Notes under the pieces: generated by a model
The model's database searches: none
What the model was told of the DNA's origin: nothing
The model's input: only the letters and a program-made list of their open reading frames with translations
Origin: Lachnospiraceae bacterium
GTDB taxonomy: Bacteria; Bacillota; Clostridia; Lachnospirales; Lachnospiraceae
Direction of reading: 5' to 3'
Assembly (NCBI GenBank): GCA_021771695.1
Contig: JAETON010000006.1
Span: 52,245-116,244, forward strand
DNA length: 64,000 bases
Made by a program: the position numbers and the translations under genes
Part shown: piece by piece, positions 14,181-39,281 of the stretch
Layout: each line of letters opens with the position of its first letter
Numbering within the stretch: the stretch's first letter is position 1

Positions 14181-14528
14181 TTATACTCTTTCTTTCACTT
14201 TTGCAGCTTTACCAACACGGTCACGTAAGTAGTATAATTTTGCACGTCTTACTTTACCACGTCTTACGACTTCAATCTTTTCAATGATTGGAGAATGAAC
14301 TGGCCAAGTCTTTTCAACTCCTACACCACTTGCATTTTTTCTTACTGTAAATGTTTCGCGGGCTCCACCGTTCTGTCTTTTGATTACAGTTCCTTCAAAT
14401 ACCTGAATTCTTTCACGGTTTCCTTCTTTTACTTTTGCGTGAACTCTGACAGTATCCCCTGTTCTGAATTCAGCTACTTCTCTTAACTGTGCATCTTCGA
14501 TGCTCTTAATAATATCCTGTGCGTTCAT
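14181..14528 (-). CDS. rplS: 50S ribosomal protein L19
   Basis: [48 protein letters not shown]. Confidence 0.97.
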
Positions 14529-14879: not shown

Positions 14880-16000
14880 TCTATTTATTTTCCAGAAGCA
14901 GGTTATACTAGATATAAAACTGTCAGCCTGTCAGTCTTTCGATTTCTGATCGATATAATTCCTCTGCTGACTGATAACCTAACAATCGTCTTGGCATTTT
15001 GTTCATCCAATCTTCTATATATTGAATATCTTCATCTGATAACGGAGCAATCGGTTTTCCTTTTTTCGCATGACGTCGGACTAGCCGATTCGCATTTTCA
15101 TTACTTCCACGTTCATATGATGAATATGGATGTGCATAGTAAATATAAATACCATGTCCTTTTTCCATTTCATATAGTCGTGAAAATTCAGAGCCATTAT
15201 CACTCGTAATGGTTTTAATTGCTTTTCTTGGTATCTCTTTTAAAATCTCTTCTAAACAAGCATTAATATCTTCTGCTTTTTTGGATGGTACTTTTCTGAT
15301 TATGTCATACCTTGTTTTTCGTTCCGTTAATGTTAAAAGTGCTTCATCATTCTGTTTCTTTCCTATTATTAAGTCAATTTCATAATGTCCAAATTCTTCT
15401 CTTTTATCAATATCTTCATCTCGTTTTTCAATACTCGTTCCAAATTGTCGTTTCTCTCTTTTTGGCTCACGCTTTTCTTTCTTTTGTTTCCGACTAACTT
15501 TGCATGGTAAATCAATATTCTTAATCTTTATGATTCCATGCTCCACATAATTGTATAGTGTGCGAACGCATACAATATCTTCTTTACTATAGTTTTCTTT
15601 TTGTAAAACTAAATGCAGTGCAGAATCTAAACTGTAACCTTTGTTTAATACAATATCTTCTACTTTTCCAATAAATTCCTGCACTTTTATATTTGAATCC
15701 TTTTTGTAATGATGAACTGATTTACAACGATTCTTTTTATATCTAGCATAACCTGCTTCCGGAAAATATATATAAAGGTCTTTGTTTCTTCTCGAATCAT
15801 ATTGATGTACAATTCCTCTTTTTAGTTCATTCCTTATCGTATTACTAGCACGACCTAATTCTTTTCCAATTGCATATGGGGAATATCCCTGTTCATGCAA
15901 TACTTTAATCATACCTCGCTCAAAATCTGTTAAGTGTTTGTGTTTGTTTTGATTTTCTGCCATATTATCACTCTCCAAAATAATAATACCAAAAAACTAA
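14880..16000 (-). mobile_element. IS30-family insertion sequence (approximate limits; terminal repeats not confidently identified)
   Basis: Complete IS30-type transposase with non-coding flanks. Confidence 0.7.
14923..15978 (-). CDS. IS30 family transposase
   Basis: N-terminal HTH (HLTDFERGMIKVLHEQGYSPYAIGKELGRASNTIRNELKRG) plus DDE region (GHYEIDLIIGKK...TITSDNGSEFS...YYAHPYSSYERGSNENANRLVRR). Confidence 0.95.
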   Translation of the reverse strand: MESDNMAENQNKHKHLTDFERGMIKVLHEQGYSPYAIGKELGRASNTIRNELKRGIVHQYDSRRNKDLYIYFPEAGYARYKKNRCKSVHHYKKDSNIKVQEFIGKVEDIVLNKGYSLDSALHLVLQKENYSKEDIVCVRTLYNYVEHGIIKIKNIDLPCKVSRKQKKEKREPKREKRQFGTSIEKRDEDIDKREEFGHYEIDLIIGKKQNDEALLTLTERKTRYDIIRKVPSKKAEDINACLEEILKEIPRKAIKTITSDNGSEFSRLYEMEKGHGIYIYYAHPYSSYERGSNENANRLVRRHAKKGKPIAPLSDEDIQYIEDWMNKMPRRLLGYQSAEELYRSEIERLTG

Positions 16001-25151: not shown

Positions 25152-25685
25152 TTATAATAGTACTTCCAAAATTGCTCCCGACGTTATAATAAATTCTCTC
25201 TCTAGCTCCTCATCTCTTGCCATGTCAGAAAAATCTATATATTTAATTAAACTATCCGATACTTCACCCCAGAAACCATTTTGTACTTCTTGATAAAGCA
25301 ATCCTTCCACATCACTGACACCGGTATGAATGATAATTTCATCTTTACTTTCAATTACTTCTTCCATAGAACCATAAATATCTAATAATTCTCCAAGCGC
25401 ATCTTCCAATTCTGTACCGGCAATGTTATCTTGATATGCTTTATACATTCGATTCAACTTATAAATAGATTCATACTCCGAAATCTCAAACGGTAATTCA
25501 TAATCATAGATTGCAATTTCTTCCTCATTTTCACCCATGTTTAAACGCTCCCGAATCGTTTCCATTGTAACCGGAAGATTAAACCAATCTCCTGTTGATA
25601 ATCCATTGTTGTATTTTGCTAATGATACAACATAAATACTCCATTCCATCTTGTCACCTGTTCCTTTCCAATAAAAAAAAAGCAC
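25152..25685 (-). CDS. ardA: Antirestriction protein ArdA (Tn916 Orf18-like)
   Basis: IYVVSLAKYNNGLSTGDWFNLP...; EEIAIYDYELPFEISEYESIYKLN. Confidence 0.9.
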   Translation of the reverse strand: MLFFYWKGTGDKMEWSIYVVSLAKYNNGLSTGDWFNLPVTMETIRERLNMGENEEEIAIYDYELPFEISEYESIYKLNRMYKAYQDNIAGTELEDALGELLDIYGSMEEVIESKDEIIIHTGVSDVEGLLYQEVQNGFWGEVSDSLIKYIDFSDMARDEELEREFIITSGAILEVLL

Positions 25686-25997: not shown

Positions 25998-26014
25998 CTT
26001 ACTTTCTCACTTTC

Positions 26015-27208
26015 TTATTCTGTTATTATGTTTTGATTGGCTACTTCTGTCTGTTGTTCTAATAGTTTCTTTTGCTTATCTGTTAACTTTGCATTGTTAA
26101 TTATTTCTTCTATCTCGTCTACTCCGTGAATTTCATCTAAAGTTAATAGTAACTTTAAAGATGGTGCTACCTGTCTTGCTATCCAATTCTTTGTCTTTTC
26201 TAAGGTGTAAGGCTCCGGCTTCATGGTTAACCTAATGTCGGTTCCCTCATCCCCAATAAACATTTTCCATATTTCATTGGTTTTCCAATTCCTGCGGTCA
26301 ACATCTTCCTGCCAGTCAGCAAATCGAATATAACGATTGATGATGGAAAAGGCTGTTTGAAATGGATTACGGTAACATAAAATATCATTGATGGCTAAAT
26401 ATGCCCTGTCATTCTTTAATCGAATTTCAAAACGATTTTTTACATCTGATTCTTTCACATCTAAACCACGCTTAATATACTGTTCCATGTCTTTTTCATA
26501 AATACAAAAGTAAATGTCACTTTGCAAGGAACCAATATATAACGTGTTTCCCATGCCGATTTTTTCATCACGCTTCTTCAATTCTCCACTGGCATAATAA
26601 CGAAAAGCACGAAACATTGAAATACACTCTCCTGCTTCACATTTGCTCGCTAAAAATGGAATGTCAAGTAATCCGGCACGGTCATTGATTGCAATGTCAA
26701 TTCGTTTAAAGACTGCATTTTCATGGTCTAATATCGGTTTAAAAAAATCATACCAACTTCTATCCTGTGCAAGTAGACAAGATTCAAACTGCCTGCAACC
26801 TTTTCCCTTTAATTCTAAGAGAACTCCTTTTTCAAGGTCTAACGTATCTGCCATTACAACTATATCTCCAAGTATATATTGTTCAGAATAACCATAAAAA
26901 GCGTGTTCCTCATGTATCATGTACTTTGGATTTATTTTTAAAATGTCTCGTAAAATGTGTTCCACATCATCTGTTGGAAAACGGATTCTTACGTAATCGA
27001 AAATGATTTCTAGTGGTGCATTGGGATTTAATCGTTCTAATGCAGTTTCAATTTTATTTAGCATACGGTCACCTGCTTTTCTTTTACCGGATAAAATTTT
27101 ACCTAAGTTTTTATAACTAACACCGGTCACTGCCTGTAATTGTCGGTAAGTAACAGCATACATTTCTTTTTTATCTGCTAATTGTTTGATTTTTGTTTCA
27201 TAATCCAA
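26015..27208 (-). CDS. Replication initiation factor / MobT-type relaxase (Tn916 Orf20-like) with N-terminal HTH
   Basis: TYRQLQAVTGVSYKNLGKILSGK HTH; FDYVRIRFPTDD...; RIDIAINDRAGLLDI. Confidence 0.88.
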   Translation of the reverse strand: MDYETKIKQLADKKEMYAVTYRQLQAVTGVSYKNLGKILSGKRKAGDRMLNKIETALERLNPNAPLEIIFDYVRIRFPTDDVEHILRDILKINPKYMIHEEHAFYGYSEQYILGDIVVMADTLDLEKGVLLELKGKGCRQFESCLLAQDRSWYDFFKPILDHENAVFKRIDIAINDRAGLLDIPFLASKCEAGECISMFRAFRYYASGELKKRDEKIGMGNTLYIGSLQSDIYFCIYEKDMEQYIKRGLDVKESDVKNRFEIRLKNDRAYLAINDILCYRNPFQTAFSIINRYIRFADWQEDVDRRNWKTNEIWKMFIGDEGTDIRLTMKPEPYTLEKTKNWIARQVAPSLKLLLTLDEIHGVDEIEEIINNAKLTDKQKKLLEQQTEVANQNIITE

Positions 27209-27299
27209 ATGATTGTCTACTCCCTTCTTCTTTTTGTTTCCATTTTTTAGTATTTGTCGTCATTTTTAGCCATTTGACGATAAGAAAAAATGCTTTAAA

Positions 27300-27465
27300 A
27301 ATAATCTCTAACCCCCATGTTTGCAAGGTTTTTTGGCTTCGGATACAGTCGAAGTATACCCCCCTGTTAGATAAAGGGGGTTAATTGCGTGGGGCTATCG
27401 CCCCACGCAAGACACAAGGCGGTTGTCGTGGCTTCCACTCCGTACGCCACTAACCGCCCTTGTCT
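27300..27465. promoter_or_regulatory. Probable origin of transfer (oriT)/origin region
   Basis: Non-coding; three successive inverted repeats (CCCCCC-tgttagataaa-GGGGG; GCGTGGGG-ctatcg-CCCCACGC; ACAAGGCGGTT...AACCGCCcTTGT), next to the relaxase gene as in Tn916. Confidence 0.65.
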
Positions 27466-27492
27466 TTCTTGCTATTACGCAATACTCCCACT

Positions 27493-27753
27493 TTAACTCA
27501 TGCCTACATACTCTGTTACCGCTTCCCCATCTTCCAAAGATGTATAGAAATTAAACTTTACCGCTTCTCGTTCCCTCGTTTGCTCCACATCTAAAAAAAC
27601 TGCAAAACGCTCATTACCCTCTATTAAATCACAAATCGATTGTAACTTACTATCTGCCTGCGACCTCATTTCCTCATTCGCTGTTTCCTCATAATCCTTT
27701 ACATAATCATCATAACCTGTGATTTTTGTAATATCTTTTATCACTTGTGCCAT
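27493..27753 (-). CDS. Small acidic protein, paralogue 1 of a tandem family (MAQVIKDITKITGYDDYVKDYEE...)
   Basis: YDDYVKDY / ADSKLQS signature; RBS GGAGC upstream of ATG at 27753. Track start 27798 is probably over-extended. Confidence 0.7.
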   Translation of the reverse strand: MAQVIKDITKITGYDDYVKDYEETANEEMRSQADSKLQSICDLIEGNERFAVFLDVEQTREREAVKFNFYTSLEDGEAVTEYVGMS

Positions 27754-27767
27754 AATTGCTCCTTTCC

Positions 27768-28058
27768 TTAGCAAAAACCGATATATCTTATCATGCATAC
27801 TCCATCTTCCATACTGCGATAAAATACAAAAGTTAAATTAAACCCTTTTAATTCGGCTTTCTTTTCATCCCTAATTTCTTCACTACTTATAAATATGTCA
27901 AAATCTCTGTCACCCTCTAATCCATTCACTGCACTTTGCAATCGCACATCAGCTAAACGATGAAGTTTTGGAATGACATAAGATTGATAATCTTTTATGT
28001 ATTCATCATAATCGCTTACCTTTGTAATATCATACTCCAATACAATCATACCTTTCAC
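27768..28058 (-). CDS. Small acidic protein, paralogue 2 of the tandem family
   Basis: YDEYIKDY / ADVRLQS signature. Confidence 0.7.
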   Translation of the reverse strand: MKGMIVLEYDITKVSDYDEYIKDYQSYVIPKLHRLADVRLQSAVNGLEGDRDFDIFISSEEIRDEKKAELKGFNLTFVFYRSMEDGVCMIRYIGFC

Positions 28059-28109
28059 TTTGTGTAGGTGTATTCTGTAACATATTGATAGTATTTCTCA
28101 ACACATTCA

Positions 28110-28388
28110 TCAAATACAACCAAGATAATCTATCACCTGCTTTCCATCATCTGTTTTGTGAGCATGAAATAGAAAAACTAAATCTTCTACTTCATCAGAA
28201 ACTAAATTTTCTAATCCCATATATACATTAAAATATCGACTGTCTACTTCTTCTAATTCACGTGGTATTCTTTCTAACCACGGTTGCAACTTTGTATCTG
28301 CATAAGAATGATACTCTTTTCGTACACGCTCTTTAAAATCTTTTACATAATCATCATAATATTGCACGTCACTTATTTCTAATATCAT
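28110..28388 (-). CDS. Small acidic protein, paralogue 3 of the tandem family
   Basis: YDDYVKDF / ADTKLQP signature. Confidence 0.7.
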   Translation of the reverse strand: MILEISDVQYYDDYVKDFKERVRKEYHSYADTKLQPWLERIPRELEEVDSRYFNVYMGLENLVSDEVEDLVFLFHAHKTDDGKQVIDYLGCI

Positions 28389-28402
28389 AACTACCTGCCT
28401 TT

Positions 28403-28676
28403 CTAACCATATGAATAATAACGGATTCTCTGTTTACCATCTATATCTCCTGCAACAAAATAAAAATCAATTCCACTAAATCCATAATAAGCACGAAATT
28501 CACTCTTTATTTCCTTATTTTCTACCAGAACATGAAATGCTTCGCTCCTATCATCTAAGGATTCTAATTTTGACTGTAACTTACTATCGGTTAAATGATG
28601 ATACTTTGGCATTACCATTTTTTTTAAAATCTCTTATATATTCCTCATAAAACATAACATCTTCTACGCTATACAT
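28403..28676 (-). pseudogene. Paralogue 4 of the tandem family, split by a +1 frameshift at an A8 tract (possible slippage gene)
   Basis: Frame 1 from ATG 28676: MYSVEDVMFYEEYIRDFKK; frame 2 from 28618: MVMPKYHHLTDSKLQS...; together they align end to end with paralogue 3. Confidence 0.65.
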
Positions 28677-30019
28677 TACACACCCCTTTCTTGATATGCT
28701 TTTTCTATCTCACGCATAAAGTCATGATTATCCGGTACAAACGGAGAATAAAACTCTATAATAACACTTTCTCCAAAATCAATATATCCACGTCCTTTGA
28801 TGTCCTTTAAGTAGAAGTTTTTGTCTACATCTCCATACATCATGGAATATCCCAGTTCAGACATTCGACCTAATGCGACACGGAAATTGAATTGGTCACG
28901 CATACCATCTCCTAAATACTTTGCGTCCGGTCTTTGACACGCTAAAATAACAAAATAACCTGCCTGCCGACCTAACATTAGGATTTGTACCAACTTGTTG
29001 TTAAATGGTTCTCGTAAGGCTCTATCCTTATCTATCATGTTAGAAAATGCTACATACTCATCAAACACTAAAAAATGCGGTGCTAATCCATAATAAGCAT
29101 AGTTCTTTCCTGTCTGATAATTCGGTAATGCCTTAATATCTTCCATACGGTCTAACATCTCTTGATGAAATTCTTCTACACACGCTACAATATCCTCTTT
29201 CGTATGATATACGTGTGGTAAAACTTTCTCTAAGTCTGCTAAATCGGCATTCTTAGGGTCACAGATGTTTAAAACTGCTCCTGCCTTAATCAGTGCTTCT
29301 ATTAAAGCCAGTATAAAGTATGATTTACCGCTACCAGTGCCACCTGCGATTAACATATGCGGTTGTTTATCAAAATTCCAACTAAGGCTTCTCATTAACT
29401 GCATGGTACTATTTTGTACCGTAACGTCCTTAATCTCGATTCTGTCTTTCATCAATTCTTCTACTAACTCATAGGTCACTCGACCACTCTTTACTTCCTT
29501 TAAAATTAATTCACAATCAAAACCACTTTCTAATCGTTTCTCTAATGTCTTATATTGGTCTTGATAGCGTCCTAGCGTTAACTTCACGACTATAATAATC
29601 GTACGTCCGCTTTTCTTGTAATACATCTTCGGAAACCATGCAATGCTTTCTTCTTTGCTTACAGGAATATCTTTAAAGAAACTTTCCTTTGGCTTTCCTT
29701 TTTCATACCATCCATTTTCTAATACCATATGTGCTAATTTCTGCCGGTGAAACATTTGGTGTAAATGCTCTCTGCCATACTTTAAATAAAGAAAACATAC
29801 CAAAAGAAATATCAATACAGAAAACATAAATATCAATATAACTCTTGAAATAATGATATGCATATAAAAATAAAGTCCATACGCATTTAGTAACAATGCA
29901 AAATACAATCCCATAGGAAGCAAAAAGATAAGAGAAACTATCGTCGCTACAAAATGAAATACTAAATGTTCATTCTTTGGACGAATCCGTTTCCCTAAAT
30001 ACCAATCTTTTATTTTCAA
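28676..30019 (-). CDS. FtsK/SpoIIIE-like coupling protein TcpA (Tn916 Orf21-like)
   Basis: MLIAGGTGSGKSYFILALIEAL Walker A; HFLVFDEYVAF Walker B; two N-terminal TM helices. Confidence 0.92.
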   Translation of the reverse strand: MKIKDWYLGKRIRPKNEHLVFHFVATIVSLIFLLPMGLYFALLLNAYGLYFYMHIIISRVILIFMFSVLIFLLVCFLYLKYGREHLHQMFHRQKLAHMVLENGWYEKGKPKESFFKDIPVSKEESIAWFPKMYYKKSGRTIIIVVKLTLGRYQDQYKTLEKRLESGFDCELILKEVKSGRVTYELVEELMKDRIEIKDVTVQNSTMQLMRSLSWNFDKQPHMLIAGGTGSGKSYFILALIEALIKAGAVLNICDPKNADLADLEKVLPHVYHTKEDIVACVEEFHQEMLDRMEDIKALPNYQTGKNYAYYGLAPHFLVFDEYVAFSNMIDKDRALREPFNNKLVQILMLGRQAGYFVILACQRPDAKYLGDGMRDQFNFRVALGRMSELGYSMMYGDVDKNFYLKDIKGRGYIDFGESVIIEFYSPFVPDNHDFMREIEKAYQERGV

Positions 30020-30023
30020 TTAA

Positions 30024-30386
30024 TTATTCTTTCTTTGGTGGCATTTGTCCTTGTGGATTGCGTTTCTTTGGTACAATATCCTCTGCTTTGATGTACCATG
30101 TTACTTCCGGTTCCGGGAATCCCGGTGTTGCTACCGAAGATACAACCGGATTTACCATGTCTACCTCATCATTATAATTAAATTTCTTCTCACCGGCTCT
30201 CTCAGGAATAGATACTTGAATCATTCCACCCTGTCCTCGTGATTTCAAATCATAAGTACGTTCTGTAATTTCATCTAACATCATTCCATCTTCGTCTTGT
30301 GCGTGTACTTCTCTACGTAACGCTGAAAACTTTAACTCTCCGAATGTTTTTACTTTATCTACTACAATTCCGTTTGCTAATCTCAT
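30024..30386 (-). CDS. DUF961/YdcP-like protein (Tn916 Orf22/23-like)
   Basis: FGELKFSALRREVHAQDEDGMMLDEITERTYDLKSRGQGGMIQVSIP; position. Confidence 0.82.
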   Translation of the reverse strand: MRLANGIVVDKVKTFGELKFSALRREVHAQDEDGMMLDEITERTYDLKSRGQGGMIQVSIPERAGEKKFNYNDEVDMVNPVVSSVATPGFPEPEVTWYIKAEDIVPKKRNPQGQMPPKKE

Positions 30387-30402
30387 ATCTTACTGTTCCT
30401 TT

Positions 30403-30720
30403 CTATAATTTTTTCATATTGTCAGCATATAAAATATAATCACTGTATGCTTGTCTATTATCAATTGCTACTGCCCGTACTTCTAAATGAGGATTTTCTA
30501 ATGCAACCATATCCTCATATTCAAAATGCTTCTCCCCTGCACTTGGCTGTAAAATTACACTTATATTATCTGCCGGCTGTTTTTCAGCATAAAGTCTATA
30601 CTCTCTACCGATAACTTTGGCACTCCTGCCATTTCCATCTGTAACTAGCTTTCCCTCTCCTGCAAATGTAATCTTTCCAAATGTTTCTTGCATATTTAAA
30701 ACTACATTTCTTAAATCCAT
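30403..30720 (-). CDS. DUF961/YdcP-like protein (second copy)
   Basis: ETFGKITFAGEG...SAKVIGREYRLYAEKQPADNISVILQPSAGEKHF; paralogue of the adjacent gene. Confidence 0.8.
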   Translation of the reverse strand: MDLRNVVLNMQETFGKITFAGEGKLVTDGNGRSAKVIGREYRLYAEKQPADNISVILQPSAGEKHFEYEDMVALENPHLEVRAVAIDNRQAYSDYILYADNMKKL

Positions 30721-30818
30721 TGGTTTACACCTCTTTCTTAAAATGGATTAAGATTTACCATTTTTATCATGATAAACCTCAATCTTAGTTTTTTGTTTGT
30801 GACTTTTTTTAATCGTTA

Positions 30819-33800
30819 CTATTTTGCTTCTTTTTTGTTTCTTTTTCTGTAAGCGTATGTTCCACCAATAAGTGCTAATACACTCATTCCTGCAAATGGT
30901 AATACATTCATCATATCACCTGTTTTTGGTGTACTGGATGATGTACCATTGCTTGGTGTGCTTGCAGATACAGGTTTTACTGTTACCTTTGCTTCACGCT
31001 TTGGCATTCCCTCACCTGTAATTTTTGCTAAGTTTGTTAAGTTACCATCTGCTTCTTTTAGTACCTTTGCGTCATATGTTACTTTCAATGTTTCTCCATA
31101 TTTCATTGTTGGAACATTGATTGTAATTGTCTGACCGTCTACTGATACTGTAGCGTCTTTTACTCCTGTTACCTTAATGCTGTCCTCATCTACCTCTAAT
31201 CCATCCGGTACTTCATCTGTTAGAACAACATCTGTTGTTTCAGCATTTTCTGTTTCAATGGCAGATTCAATCGTATACTTTAAAACATCTCCTACCTTAT
31301 AGGTATCTTTGTCAACACCTTTGGTTAACGTCCAATCTGCTTTCTTTACTGTTACAACATTGTTATCTTCATCATCCGGTGTATTGTCAGAACTTGCGAC
31401 AACTGCATTTGCATATTCACCTGTTTTTGTAAAAGTTGCATTGTATGTGATAACAAGTTCATCTTCATCTGTTAAGTTCTTGCCTGTTTCGATTTTGAAT
31501 CCTGTTTCACTTGTGGTAATCGTACAATCTTTCGTAATATCCTCTTTGTTTAAAGTTACCTTTAAACTGTCAGCGTCAATTACTACTCCATCTTCGTTTG
31601 TAAATGCGTCCTCTACAACTACATTCTTTGCTGTTAAATTTTCTTTGGTTTGTTTTACAACTTCTGTATAGGTTCCTGTTGCTCCAACTGCATATTCTTG
31701 CTTATCAGATGTTTTTGTTACTTCTAATGCAGGTGTTTTCATTGTAATATCCTCAATATCTTCTCCACCACCACTAGGAATCGTATCATCTGTTACAATC
31801 AAGTCACCATTTACATTTTCAGTTGCAGGTGCAGTAAATGTATTCTTCAAAGAACTTGATACGTCCGCGTCCTCTGTAATTACTGCGTCATATGTTACGG
31901 TTACTTTGTCTGCCCATGTCATAGCATTGTATGGGTCTTTTTCTGCACATGGAATATCACCATTCTTTAAGTTGTACTCCGTATTGATGGTAAATCCTTT
32001 GCCATCATCATTATAGGTCACATCTAAGTCTTTAGTAATGTCTTTACCGCCAACTAAAACTGCTACTGTACCCTCTTTGATTTCAAGTCCATCACTGTTT
32101 ACAACATCATTTAATACAATGTTGTGCATATAAGTTCCGGCATTTTTGTTTGTAATGGTTACTTTATAACCTACAACATCTCCTACCTTATATTTCTTAT
32201 CCGGTGCTGTCTTTACAACGTCCACTTTCGGACTGTTGATGTAAACCTGTTCCTTATCTGTCTTTTCCGGGATACCTGCAGCGATCGCTGAAGCAGTGTT
32301 ATCGACACAGGTTCCGTTACTTGCAACCAAAGCTTTCGCATCGTAAGTCACGGTAATCGTCGTTCCATACGGAAGAGCATAATCTCCTTTGGATTTTAAA
32401 ACCCATCCGTTACCGCTTTGCGAAATAGTATAATTGGCTTCATCAATTCCGGAAACTTTCACAGAACTAAAATCAAAAGCAAAGGTATCCGGCAGTGTCG
32501 TATCAGAAATCGTGAAATATGCCGTATCCGCATTTGGATTTGTATTTTGAACCTTTACTGTATAATGTACGATATCGCCAACCTGATGTTCATATCGGTT
32601 CACATCCTTTGTAATCTTCAGTCCCGGTTTTGGTGTCTCTCCCGGAGGTGTCATTTCAGATAATTCAATCAGCGTTTTCACTTCATTCGTTACTTTATTT
32701 TCTCCATCGATGATAGTCTTTGCACTATTATTTTCTGTCAAAACAGTCTTTGTTTCATTGTAATGTCCGTGGGTTGTCCATGTTTCCCTCAGTGCATTTA
32801 ACTGCTCTTCTGAAGTATTAGCCGGAACATTCATTCTTACTTTTACTTTCAATGTATATAATACATTAGAGTAAAATTCAGAATCCTTTGGATTTTTCAG
32901 AGTCGCTTTTACATCATTTCCAACCGTAGAAATATTGAACATGGAACTTACATCCGTTTCTGCCCCTCCGTTCGCAGCAACAACCTTCACGTCCAAAATC
33001 TTCATACATTCTTCTACCTTATCTTCAAATGCAAAGCTGTCATAACAGAAATTTTCTGCCTTTGCCGGTATCGGCTGTGATACACTGTAAGTCCATGTTT
33101 TGCTCAGATCACGGACATGGATTTCTTTTACATCCGTTTCCTTATCATTGCTGTCATTGGTGACTGTTTTTACCGGAGCTTCCGTTGGAAAATCCACCAT
33201 GGACTGGCCGGAACCTACATACTGTTCCGTTCTTGTCGCATGAGTATACTCTGGATGCTGTCCCATGTCACGGCCAAAGGTGTATGTAAAGCTGTTGGAT
33301 TCAAATGTAAATCCCACAGCTGTAAATGCTTCTCCTTCATAATTTGGTGAATCGGAACAGTAGTAAGCATTTCCGCCTTTTTCCATGTATTTCAGTTTCG
33401 TATTGCCTGCAACATATTCCCCTGTGACTTTATCTGCATTGATGGATATATACTGGCACTCGTCAATATCATTTAATGTTAAATTAGATTTCAATGTAAT
33501 TGGTGTATTTGTGCCTGCTTTATAAAACTGAGTTTTAACTGTCATCTGGTCCAGTCCCACGTAAGAAGCATTGGCAACTCCTGCACCAATGCCGACATAT
33601 CCATCCCCATACTCATCATCCAGTTTCGGATTGGAGATCGTACGCACAATATCAACATCTACAAACTTTCCATTCTGCCAGATAGAAAGTCCGGTGATTT
33701 TTACTTTAAATACATCACTTTCACTCTTTACATGAAACCATGTATACTCTTTTAAAAATGCCGGGAGTGTCACATCTTTATCATGAAACTGTGTCGGCGG

Positions 33801-34163
33801 ACTGCACTCATTTCTGGTACTTCCGTTCATGACTTCTATTTTTCTTAAACTGTTTCCATTTTTATCTTTTTTGCTTTTCAGCTTATAGCCATATGCAGCA
33901 TTGACTTTCAGGGCTTTATTCTTGGAATCATCATAGCTGGAATAGCTGTGTGAATCATTTCTCCACCAGTTAGTTCCATCATTAATCTTTTGTGCACTTC
34001 CTGTATCTGTCCCAGCAGCATAAACAAAACTCCCTTGAGAACCCAGGCTGTTTGCACACACCAGAACCGCTGCTAATATGCACACGGCTTTCCTCGAAAG
34101 TTTCCTCACTTTCGACATAAACTTATCTTTCTTCATAATCTTTTCCTTTCTGTTTTCATGCAT
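30819..34163 (-). CDS. Large sortase-anchored surface protein with DUF11-like isopeptide/Ig repeats
   Basis: Signal peptide; repeated VxKTxDKxxYxVGDxVxYTVxxxN units; C-terminal TPKTGD + TM + KRNKKEAK. Confidence 0.88.
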   Translation of the reverse strand: MHENRKEKIMKKDKFMSKVRKLSRKAVCILAAVLVCANSLGSQGSFVYAAGTDTGSAQKINDGTNWWRNDSHSYSSYDDSKNKALKVNAAYGYKLKSKKDKNGNSLRKIEVMNGSTRNECSPPTQFHDKDVTLPAFLKEYTWFHVKSESDVFKVKITGLSIWQNGKFVDVDIVRTISNPKLDDEYGDGYVGIGAGVANASYVGLDQMTVKTQFYKAGTNTPITLKSNLTLNDIDECQYISINADKVTGEYVAGNTKLKYMEKGGNAYYCSDSPNYEGEAFTAVGFTFESNSFTYTFGRDMGQHPEYTHATRTEQYVGSGQSMVDFPTEAPVKTVTNDSNDKETDVKEIHVRDLSKTWTYSVSQPIPAKAENFCYDSFAFEDKVEECMKILDVKVVAANGGAETDVSSMFNISTVGNDVKATLKNPKDSEFYSNVLYTLKVKVRMNVPANTSEEQLNALRETWTTHGHYNETKTVLTENNSAKTIIDGENKVTNEVKTLIELSEMTPPGETPKPGLKITKDVNRYEHQVGDIVHYTVKVQNTNPNADTAYFTISDTTLPDTFAFDFSSVKVSGIDEANYTISQSGNGWVLKSKGDYALPYGTTITVTYDAKALVASNGTCVDNTASAIAAGIPEKTDKEQVYINSPKVDVVKTAPDKKYKVGDVVGYKVTITNKNAGTYMHNIVLNDVVNSDGLEIKEGTVAVLVGGKDITKDLDVTYNDDGKGFTINTEYNLKNGDIPCAEKDPYNAMTWADKVTVTYDAVITEDADVSSSLKNTFTAPATENVNGDLIVTDDTIPSGGGEDIEDITMKTPALEVTKTSDKQEYAVGATGTYTEVVKQTKENLTAKNVVVEDAFTNEDGVVIDADSLKVTLNKEDITKDCTITTSETGFKIETGKNLTDEDELVITYNATFTKTGEYANAVVASSDNTPDDEDNNVVTVKKADWTLTKGVDKDTYKVGDVLKYTIESAIETENAETTDVVLTDEVPDGLEVDEDSIKVTGVKDATVSVDGQTITINVPTMKYGETLKVTYDAKVLKEADGNLTNLAKITGEGMPKREAKVTVKPVSASTPSNGTSSSTPKTGDMMNVLPFAGMSVLALIGGTYAYRKRNKKEAK

Positions 34164-37750: not shown

Positions 37751-38575
37751 TTACCTAAATTTTTCCATAGCCTTTGCTACACCGTCTTCATTATTAGATA
37801 CTGTAATATAATCCGCAATTTTTTTCACAGAATCCAATCCATTTTCCATAACTACAGCAATTCCCGCTTCTTGAAGCATTTCTGTATCATTATCTGCATC
37901 CCCAAATGCCATCGTTTCCTCTTTTTTCAATCCAAGTGCTTCCGCCAAATGTTTTAATCCATCTCCTTTGTTGCATCCTTTAGTAGAAATCTCAAGGTTC
38001 TTCGGCAGTGAACTGGAATACTGAATATCCTCAAACTGCTTTAATTCTTCCCATACTTTTGCCCGTTCTTCCATAGTACGAAAAATTAAAGTCATTTTTT
38101 CAATGGTTTCATAATGTTCTTTTATGTATTCATCCAGATTCTCAATTATCTTTCTGGAGCCTTTCACAACTTCCCTTGTGTTCGTATCCAATTCATAATA
38201 ATCCAAATTCTCCATAGGTTTCCGTTCTCCATATGCCTGTCCGTTTTGGCTGATACTAATCATCACATCAAAAGAACGTAAAAATTGAATCAGCTCCAAA
38301 ACTCTTTCTGGCTGAAAATGATTTTTATAGAGCACTTTCTGCTCATGAAGATCATAAATTGTAGCACCATTGCTGAATATTCCGTAACGGATTTTCTCCA
38401 TAGCTGCTAATTCTTTGGGTAAACTATTCACAGCTCTCCCGGTAGCCGCTACAAAATGCACTCCGCGGTCTAATGCTTTTTGAATCGTATTCTGCGTATA
38501 CTTTGTAATTACACGATTTCCATCTAATAAAGTTCCATCCATATCTGCTGCAACCAGCTTAATCTCACTTTTCAC
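37751..38575 (-). CDS. HAD-superfamily Cof-type phosphatase
   Basis: KLVAADMDGTLLDGNRVITKYT; MAFGDADNDTEMLQEAG. Likely GTG start at 38575; track start 38794 is over-extended into trmD. Confidence 0.85.
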   Translation of the reverse strand: MKSEIKLVAADMDGTLLDGNRVITKYTQNTIQKALDRGVHFVAATGRAVNSLPKELAAMEKIRYGIFSNGATIYDLHEQKVLYKNHFQPERVLELIQFLRSFDVMISISQNGQAYGERKPMENLDYYELDTNTREVVKGSRKIIENLDEYIKEHYETIEKMTLIFRTMEERAKVWEELKQFEDIQYSSSLPKNLEISTKGCNKGDGLKHLAEALGLKKEETMAFGDADNDTEMLQEAGIAVVMENGLDSVKKIADYITVSNNEDGVAKAMEKFR

Positions 38576-39281
38576 TTTGTTCTCCTGTATTTTTTTGATA
38601 TTCTTCCCATAAATCGGGTCTTCTCTCTTTTGTTCTTTGTATAGACTGCTCCTGTCTCCACTTCCGAATATTTTCATGATGTCCGGATAACAATACTTCC
38701 GGAACCTCTTTTTCCAAAAACTTCGGTGGTCTTGTATACTGTGGATATTCCAACAATCCATTTTCAAAGGATTCATCTCCTGCAGATTCATCATTATTTA
38801 ATACTCCCGGTACGAAACGGGAAATAGCATCGATCATTACCATTGCCGGAAGTTCCCCTCCCGTCAACACATAATCTCCAATGGAAACATAATCTGTAAC
38901 AATCTCTTCTAACACTCTTTCATCCACGCCTTCATAATGTCCGCATAGAAATATTAATTCCTCTTCTTTTGCCAATTCCTTTGCCATATTCTGATGAAAA
39001 ACACAGCCTTGCGGCGTCATATAAATCACCCTTGGCTTCCTTGGCATATTCTTCGTTATATCCTGATACGCGCTGTAAATCGGTTCCGGCTGCATTACCA
39101 GTCCGGCACCCCCGCCATAAGGATAATCATCCACTTTCATATGCTTATTGGTAGAATAATCCCGGATATTTACTGCTTGAATATCCAAATATCCAGCCTC
39201 CATTGCTCTTCCAATAATACTTGTATTTAATCCATTCATCACCATATCTGGAAACAGTGTTAATATATGAAATTTATTCAT
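38565..39281 (-). CDS. trmD: tRNA (guanine-37-N1)-methyltransferase
   Basis: FHILTLFPDMV; DDYPYGGGAGLVMQPEP; IGDYVLTGGELPAMVMIDAISR. Confidence 0.97.
   Translation of the reverse strand: MNKFHILTLFPDMVMNGLNTSIIGRAMEAGYLDIQAVNIRDYSTNKHMKVDDYPYGGGAGLVMQPEPIYSAYQDITKNMPRKPRVIYMTPQGCVFHQNMAKELAKEEELIFLCGHYEGVDERVLEEIVTDYVSIGDYVLTGGELPAMVMIDAISRFVPGVLNNDESAGDESFENGLLEYPQYTRPPKFLEKEVPEVLLSGHHENIRKWRQEQSIQRTKERRPDLWEEYQKNTGEQSEK

Follow-up and report, generated by a model that had tools for sequence, protein, structure and literature searches.

Several described systems invite comparison with a tandem array of small acidic genes beside the oriT of a Tn916-type ICE. The DNA-mimicking antirestriction proteins ArdA and sArdA are likewise small, acidic and encoded near oriT of Tn916-type ICEs, and most members of the array family are similar to them in net charge per residue; nevertheless, the array differs by the absence of profile similarity and of an ArdA fold match, and by its location on the opposite side of nic. 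Polyimmunity arrays also comprise tandem, diverged, small and acidic proteins, whereas the present array resides in a conjugation operon and features neither a recognized toxin partner nor an immunity profile match. The neighboring DUF961 genes, compared here with those of the OB-fold proteins OrfL and OrfM of ICESt3, are small operon genes too (about 100-130 aa). However, they occur in nearly all ICEs compared and are matched by Pfam, while the array family is sporadic, unmatched and modeled as ααβββ instead of an OB-fold. Finally, the leading-region anti-defence genes of conjugative plasmids are small, diversified and near oriT (PMC11541004), and DNA-modification genes occupy the same place in relatives of the array. 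In contrast to these genes, the array is predicted to lie on the trailing side, in a MOBT element, a class for which the same study detected no anti-defence enrichment in leading regions (PMC11541004).

The stretch of DNA analyzed here (the window, 64,000 nucleotides, contig label G000:C39:52245-116244) carries a Tn916-type ICE on its minus strand, with two DUF961 genes, tcpA, the array, oriT, mobT, a small gene, ardA and transfer genes in this order. Profile matches identified both DUF961 genes (30024..30386, of the OB-fold relaxosome auxiliary family, with a putative role taken from PMC12614216; and 30403..30720), tcpA for an FtsK/SpoIIIE-type coupling protein (28676..30019) and the mobT relaxase gene (Rep_trans, 26015..27208), while ardA (25152..25685, Pfam match 9.9e-24) is placed on the leading side of nic. 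All four array copies are found between tcpA and oriT, as the initial annotation had it, and follow each other in the transcription order P4-P3-P2-P1 with tight spacing and on the same strand as the conjugation genes. P1 (27493..27753, 86 aa, pI 4.2, with the Shine-Dalgarno sequence AAAGGAG upstream), P2 (27768..28049, 93 aa, with an uncertain start at 28058, 28049 or 28040) and P3 (28110..28388, 92 aa) are intact reading frames. The same had been assumed for the fourth copy, P4 (28403..28676), which proved to be split by a frameshift: its N-terminal part (MYSVEDVMFYEEYIRDFKK...) and its 71-aa C-terminal part (28403-28618) are in different frames, parted near an A8 run at 28617-28624, and both halves, each in its own frame, align with the family over the whole length. 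P4 is probably a pseudogene, or its product is rarely made via slippage. The start codon of P4, which follows a strong ribosome-binding site, shares bases with the stop codon of tcpA (TAATG); P1 and P3 are also preceded by good ribosome-binding sites.

Further features of the element were recorded alongside. Two strong hairpins (GGCGGTT...AACCGCC and GCGTGGGGCGATAGCCCCACGC), possibly part of oriT or an attenuator, immediately precede the nic hairpin on its upstream side, at 27387-27457; no Rfam elements were found in 26000-31000. A large LPXTG-anchored repeat protein with DUF11 and pilin-backbone domains (30819-34163) adjoins the DUF961 genes, and large ORFs like it occur at the same place in many related ICEs. 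The ICE is situated between rplS (14181-14528) and trmD (38565-39281), which are usually neighbors. Within this span (14181-39281) no tyrosine or serine integrase was recognized by eye, and an IS30-like transposase (HTH_38 and rve, 14923-15978) is located at one end; thus, the element may have been truncated, or its mobility may rely on other means. Beside this transposase, a stretch at 14882-14919 repeats in inverted orientation a segment inside the transposase gene (15735-15772), the 38-nt pair being 92% complementary.

The array members have in common the motif Y-D-(D/E)-Y-(V/I)-K-D-(Y/F)...AD-x-(K/R)-LQ...(E/D)DG...Y-(V/I/L)-G. BLOSUM62 local scores yielded shuffle z values of 25.0 (P1/P2), 16.9 (P1/P3) and 12.9 (P2/P4c), and leave-one-out profile searches recovered every member (E 5e-24 to 2.5e-9). 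With a similarity far above chance, P1-P4 can be regarded as one tandem family, and the alignment corroborates the shared four-copy motif and the tandem diversification adjoining oriT that the initial annotation had described. The acidity claimed there holds for P1, which has about twice as many D/E as K/R residues (20 vs. 9), but is graded across the copies, with net charges of -11 (P1), -6 (P2), -10 (P3) and only about -3 (P4). Per residue, the charge amounts to -0.11 to -0.17 in P1, P3 and the relatives designated G119, G953, G920 and G1330, to about -0.07 in P2 and G141 and to about -0.03 in P4, compared to -0.147 for the ArdA of the window and a window median of -0.007. Accordingly, most family members are about as acidic as ArdA. 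In the family sequences, neither a membrane segment nor a signal peptide is evident.

Scans of the array proteins against Pfam, NCBIfam, PHROGs and PADLOC profiles gave chance-level matches only (for PADLOC none better than E 0.0039), without any recognized DNA-binding or enzymatic domain, and among PDB sequences a profile search hit two entries at chance level, both above E 0.2. The family, which had not been recognized initially either, therefore appears to be new in the sense of being without description in these five collections. Membership in ArdA/sArdA was rejected, as hhalign against two ArdA proteins returned a probability of 0.2% and none of P1-P4 matched Pfam PF07275. AlphaFold2 models with P3 or the G953 protein as first sequence reached mean pLDDT values of 92.9 and 92.7 (pTM 0.82), and both are compact, with two helices followed by three strands (ααβββ). 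Foldseek searches with the two models gave no convincing match in the PDB (best E 0.31 and 0.5) or among the BFVD viral structures (best E 0.21), and ArdA was not among the best 50 PDB fold matches listed for either model, with nothing below E 0.3. Structure prediction, which had been suggested to look for DNA-mimic or inhibitor folds, thus led to no convincing fold match in these two collections. Provisionally, judged against the PDB and BFVD, the predicted ααβββ fold is possibly new.

Profile searches of whole genomes (1869 in all) revealed single-copy relatives in seven other genomes (G119, G222, G141, G953, G920, G1330 and G1490), and the genes of G119 and G953 recur almost unchanged on two IMG/VR contigs. 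As the genomes of the relatives belong to three families of one class (f1, f64 and f81), the gene travels widely. Every confident relative adjoins tcpA of a MOBT ICE: in G119, G222, G141, G1330 and G1490 it occupies the DUF961-tcpA slot, in G953, G920 and the window the slot between tcpA and oriT. In the genomes searched, the family was confined to MOBT (Tn916-type) ICEs and there to these two cargo slots flanking tcpA, and multiple copies occurred only in the window. Most of the 20 ICEs under comparison lack it, and the nearest other ICE of the same genome (L036, tcpA 66-67% identical) has an empty slot, with 176 bp from the tcpA stop codon to nic vs. about 1.3 kb in the window. No match was obtained by tblastn against plasmids (P3 and G953 queries) or phages (P3 query), and order-level search matches inside larger ORFs (E 0.001-0.05) were treated as chance. 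The array is an accessory gene family of known ICEs and ordinary in kind. In a small tree, which is indicative only given the short sequences and long branches, the family separates according to slot, with P1 placed beside G953/G920 (support 90/93). This suggests that P1 was the founding gene of the tcpA-oriT slot, P2-P4 being later or imported copies. Two of the relatives' loci showed additional peculiarities. In G1330, the slot between tcpA and oriT, which corresponds to that of the array, holds a 127-aa acidic protein without Pfam match (L091 10620-11003). In G920 (L088 5700-14200), tcpA is apparently split in two frames and a large conjugation ATPase gene is interrupted beside a recombinase-like ORF; this element looks decayed, its family gene nonetheless being intact.

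The family gene diverges out of step with its surroundings. Between G119 and G1490, the flanks share 88-97% protein identity and the family gene 63%, with a dS of 1.62 for the family gene vs. 0.21-0.48 for the DUF961 genes and tcpA. The reverse applies to G953 and G920, where the flanks share 75-79% and the family gene 83% protein identity, at a dS of 0.43 vs. about 1.6 for the flanks (dS values above 1 being rough). The gene is hence exchanged between ICE backbones independently of tcpA and moves as a cassette; we have hardly any doubt about the description of the family together with this behavior. In both pairs, the dN/dS of the family gene is 0.14-0.22, without a sign of positive selection. 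The gene is hence functional and mostly constrained by purifying selection, and strong diversifying selection was not seen in the pairwise dN/dS of the relatives, a comparison that had been proposed for copies in related ICEs; the paralogues of the window are too diverged for it.

Cleavage by MOBT relaxases takes place at CT'AA, within the loop of a hairpin rich in GC, and relaxases remain on the 5' end that the nick leaves (PMC9371924). In the window, the corresponding motif CCCCCTTTATCT'AACAGGGGGG is located on the mobT-sense (minus) strand in the loop of a GC-rich hairpin (27361..27382), which sets the nick between 27369 and 27368. The motif has the same orientation in the 20 ICEs compared first (the window and 19 relatives), with no opposite-strand match, and again in G953, G920 and G1330. 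From the conserved motif, we infer nick and polarity as in ICEBs1 and ICESt3. Given this orientation and a relaxase on the 5' end, transfer would start towards mobT; the first DNA into the recipient would be mobT, slightly later followed by ardA, and the array, which is placed on the trailing side of nic, would enter at the very end. An assignment of the array to the leading region, as originally envisaged, was abandoned, since the array lies upstream of nic and not in the predicted first-transferred segment; the survey of leading regions likewise found MOBT elements to show no anti-defence enrichment there (PMC11541004). Entering last, it could not act in the first moments of entry.

The two slots flanking tcpA also harbor other cargo. 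A Mom DNA-modification gene was detected in the slots of G148 and G920 (Pfam E 3.5e-64 and 6.8e-58) and an MT-A70 methyltransferase in that of G953 (E 2.7e-29), so DNA-modification genes, which can confer protection from restriction, recur there, as do unrelated genes. The slots further hold a DUF2971 protein with a strong PADLOC PDC-S31 match in G183, a candidate defence protein (E 4.8e-35), DUF4238 in G152 and several unknowns, as well as a peptidase S51, SF0329 and an HTH-membrane protein, which have no link to defence; the slots sampled are too few to test for enrichment. The Mom family, chiefly known from phage Mu, was observed here in the DUF961-tcpA interval of two MOBT ICEs (L044, -745 to 70 relative to tcpA, tcpA-oriented; L088 4839-5690). 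Besides, the DUF961-tcpA slot of the ICE in G007 (L046, -529 to -45 relative to tcpA, tcpA-oriented) holds two consecutive small proteins of 83 and 76 aa, which are alike by eye and have no Pfam match.

With regard to function, the array is tentatively read as accessory anti-defence cargo acting in the donor or the new host, a reading that we favor at clearly less than even confidence. The acidity, the cassette exchange and the presence of Mom and MT-A70 in the same slots make such a role possible, and the multiplication and decay of copies add circumstantial evidence, as a broken P4 beside multiplied copies is the pattern expected under changing targets. The array is a local expansion of one cassette encoding a new family of small soluble acidic proteins. 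Their production would go along with that of the conjugation operon, in donors upon activation and in new transconjugants as soon as the second strand is present. There, they might bind and inhibit a host protein attacking the element, likeliest a restriction or other DNA-targeting defence enzyme, with the acidic face as the likeliest mode of binding and different copies suiting different hosts or targets. Against this reading, profile scans and Foldseek gave no match of any member to a known inhibitor, defence protein or fold, and the array would enter too late for the first moments of entry. Furthermore, strong acidity is lacking in P4 and P2, genes without a link to defence occur in the slots as well, dN/dS gives no sign of positive selection and the nearest other ICE of the same genome (L036) has no copy. 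More doubtful is the specific form of a trailing-end counterpart to leading-region anti-defence, in which the paralogues of this new family, with its possibly new fold, would each be directed against another host defence once the element has entered completely.

A function as auxiliary parts of the transfer machinery, which would attach to TcpA, MobT or the oriT complex and adjust how DNA is processed or which substrate is chosen, is considered rather unlikely, even though every member adjoins tcpA, the first copy overlaps its stop codon and a role of this kind is described for the neighboring DUF961-like family in ICESt3 (PMC12614216). The gene is missing from most related ICEs, among them the nearest one of the same genome, and shows no co-evolution with tcpA, being swapped independently and found on either side of it, which makes a machinery role less likely; moreover, the adjacency is common to unrelated cargo (Mom, peptidase S51) and so uninformative. 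Antitoxin-like, exclusion or immunity proteins, shielding the donor or new host against either a rival element or the activity of the ICE itself, are an unlikely explanation. The tandem, diverged, small acidic proteins resemble polyimmunity arrays and show no apparent membrane segment or signal peptide, but no partner toxin was recognized beside any member and no immunity family was matched in Pfam, NCBIfam, PHROGs or PADLOC. In addition, transcription of the conjugation operon in Tn916-type ICEs takes place mainly after excision, which fits constitutive immunity badly. Modulators of host physiology or ICE expression in activated donors or transconjugants, without a defence role, would agree with the same-strand operon position and with the effect of Tn916 activation on host growth described in PMC9632896, yet with no DNA-binding or enzymatic domain recognized and no known partner, we regard them as improbable, too. 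Chance or decayed reading frames without function, to which the frameshift in P4 might point, are highly implausible in view of three intact copies, strong ribosome-binding sites at P1, P3 and P4, purifying selection in the relatives, a confident fold from two different query members and conservation in eight genomes.

Elements of the Tn916 type rank among the major vehicles of resistance genes in Gram-positive bacteria. The main survey of leading regions left MOBT elements aside for want of anti-defence enrichment (PMC11541004). The cargo slot beside tcpA, with Mom, MT-A70 and the array family, offers a concrete place to seek counter-defence genes of MOBT elements, and the array family a ready set of small proteins for testing.
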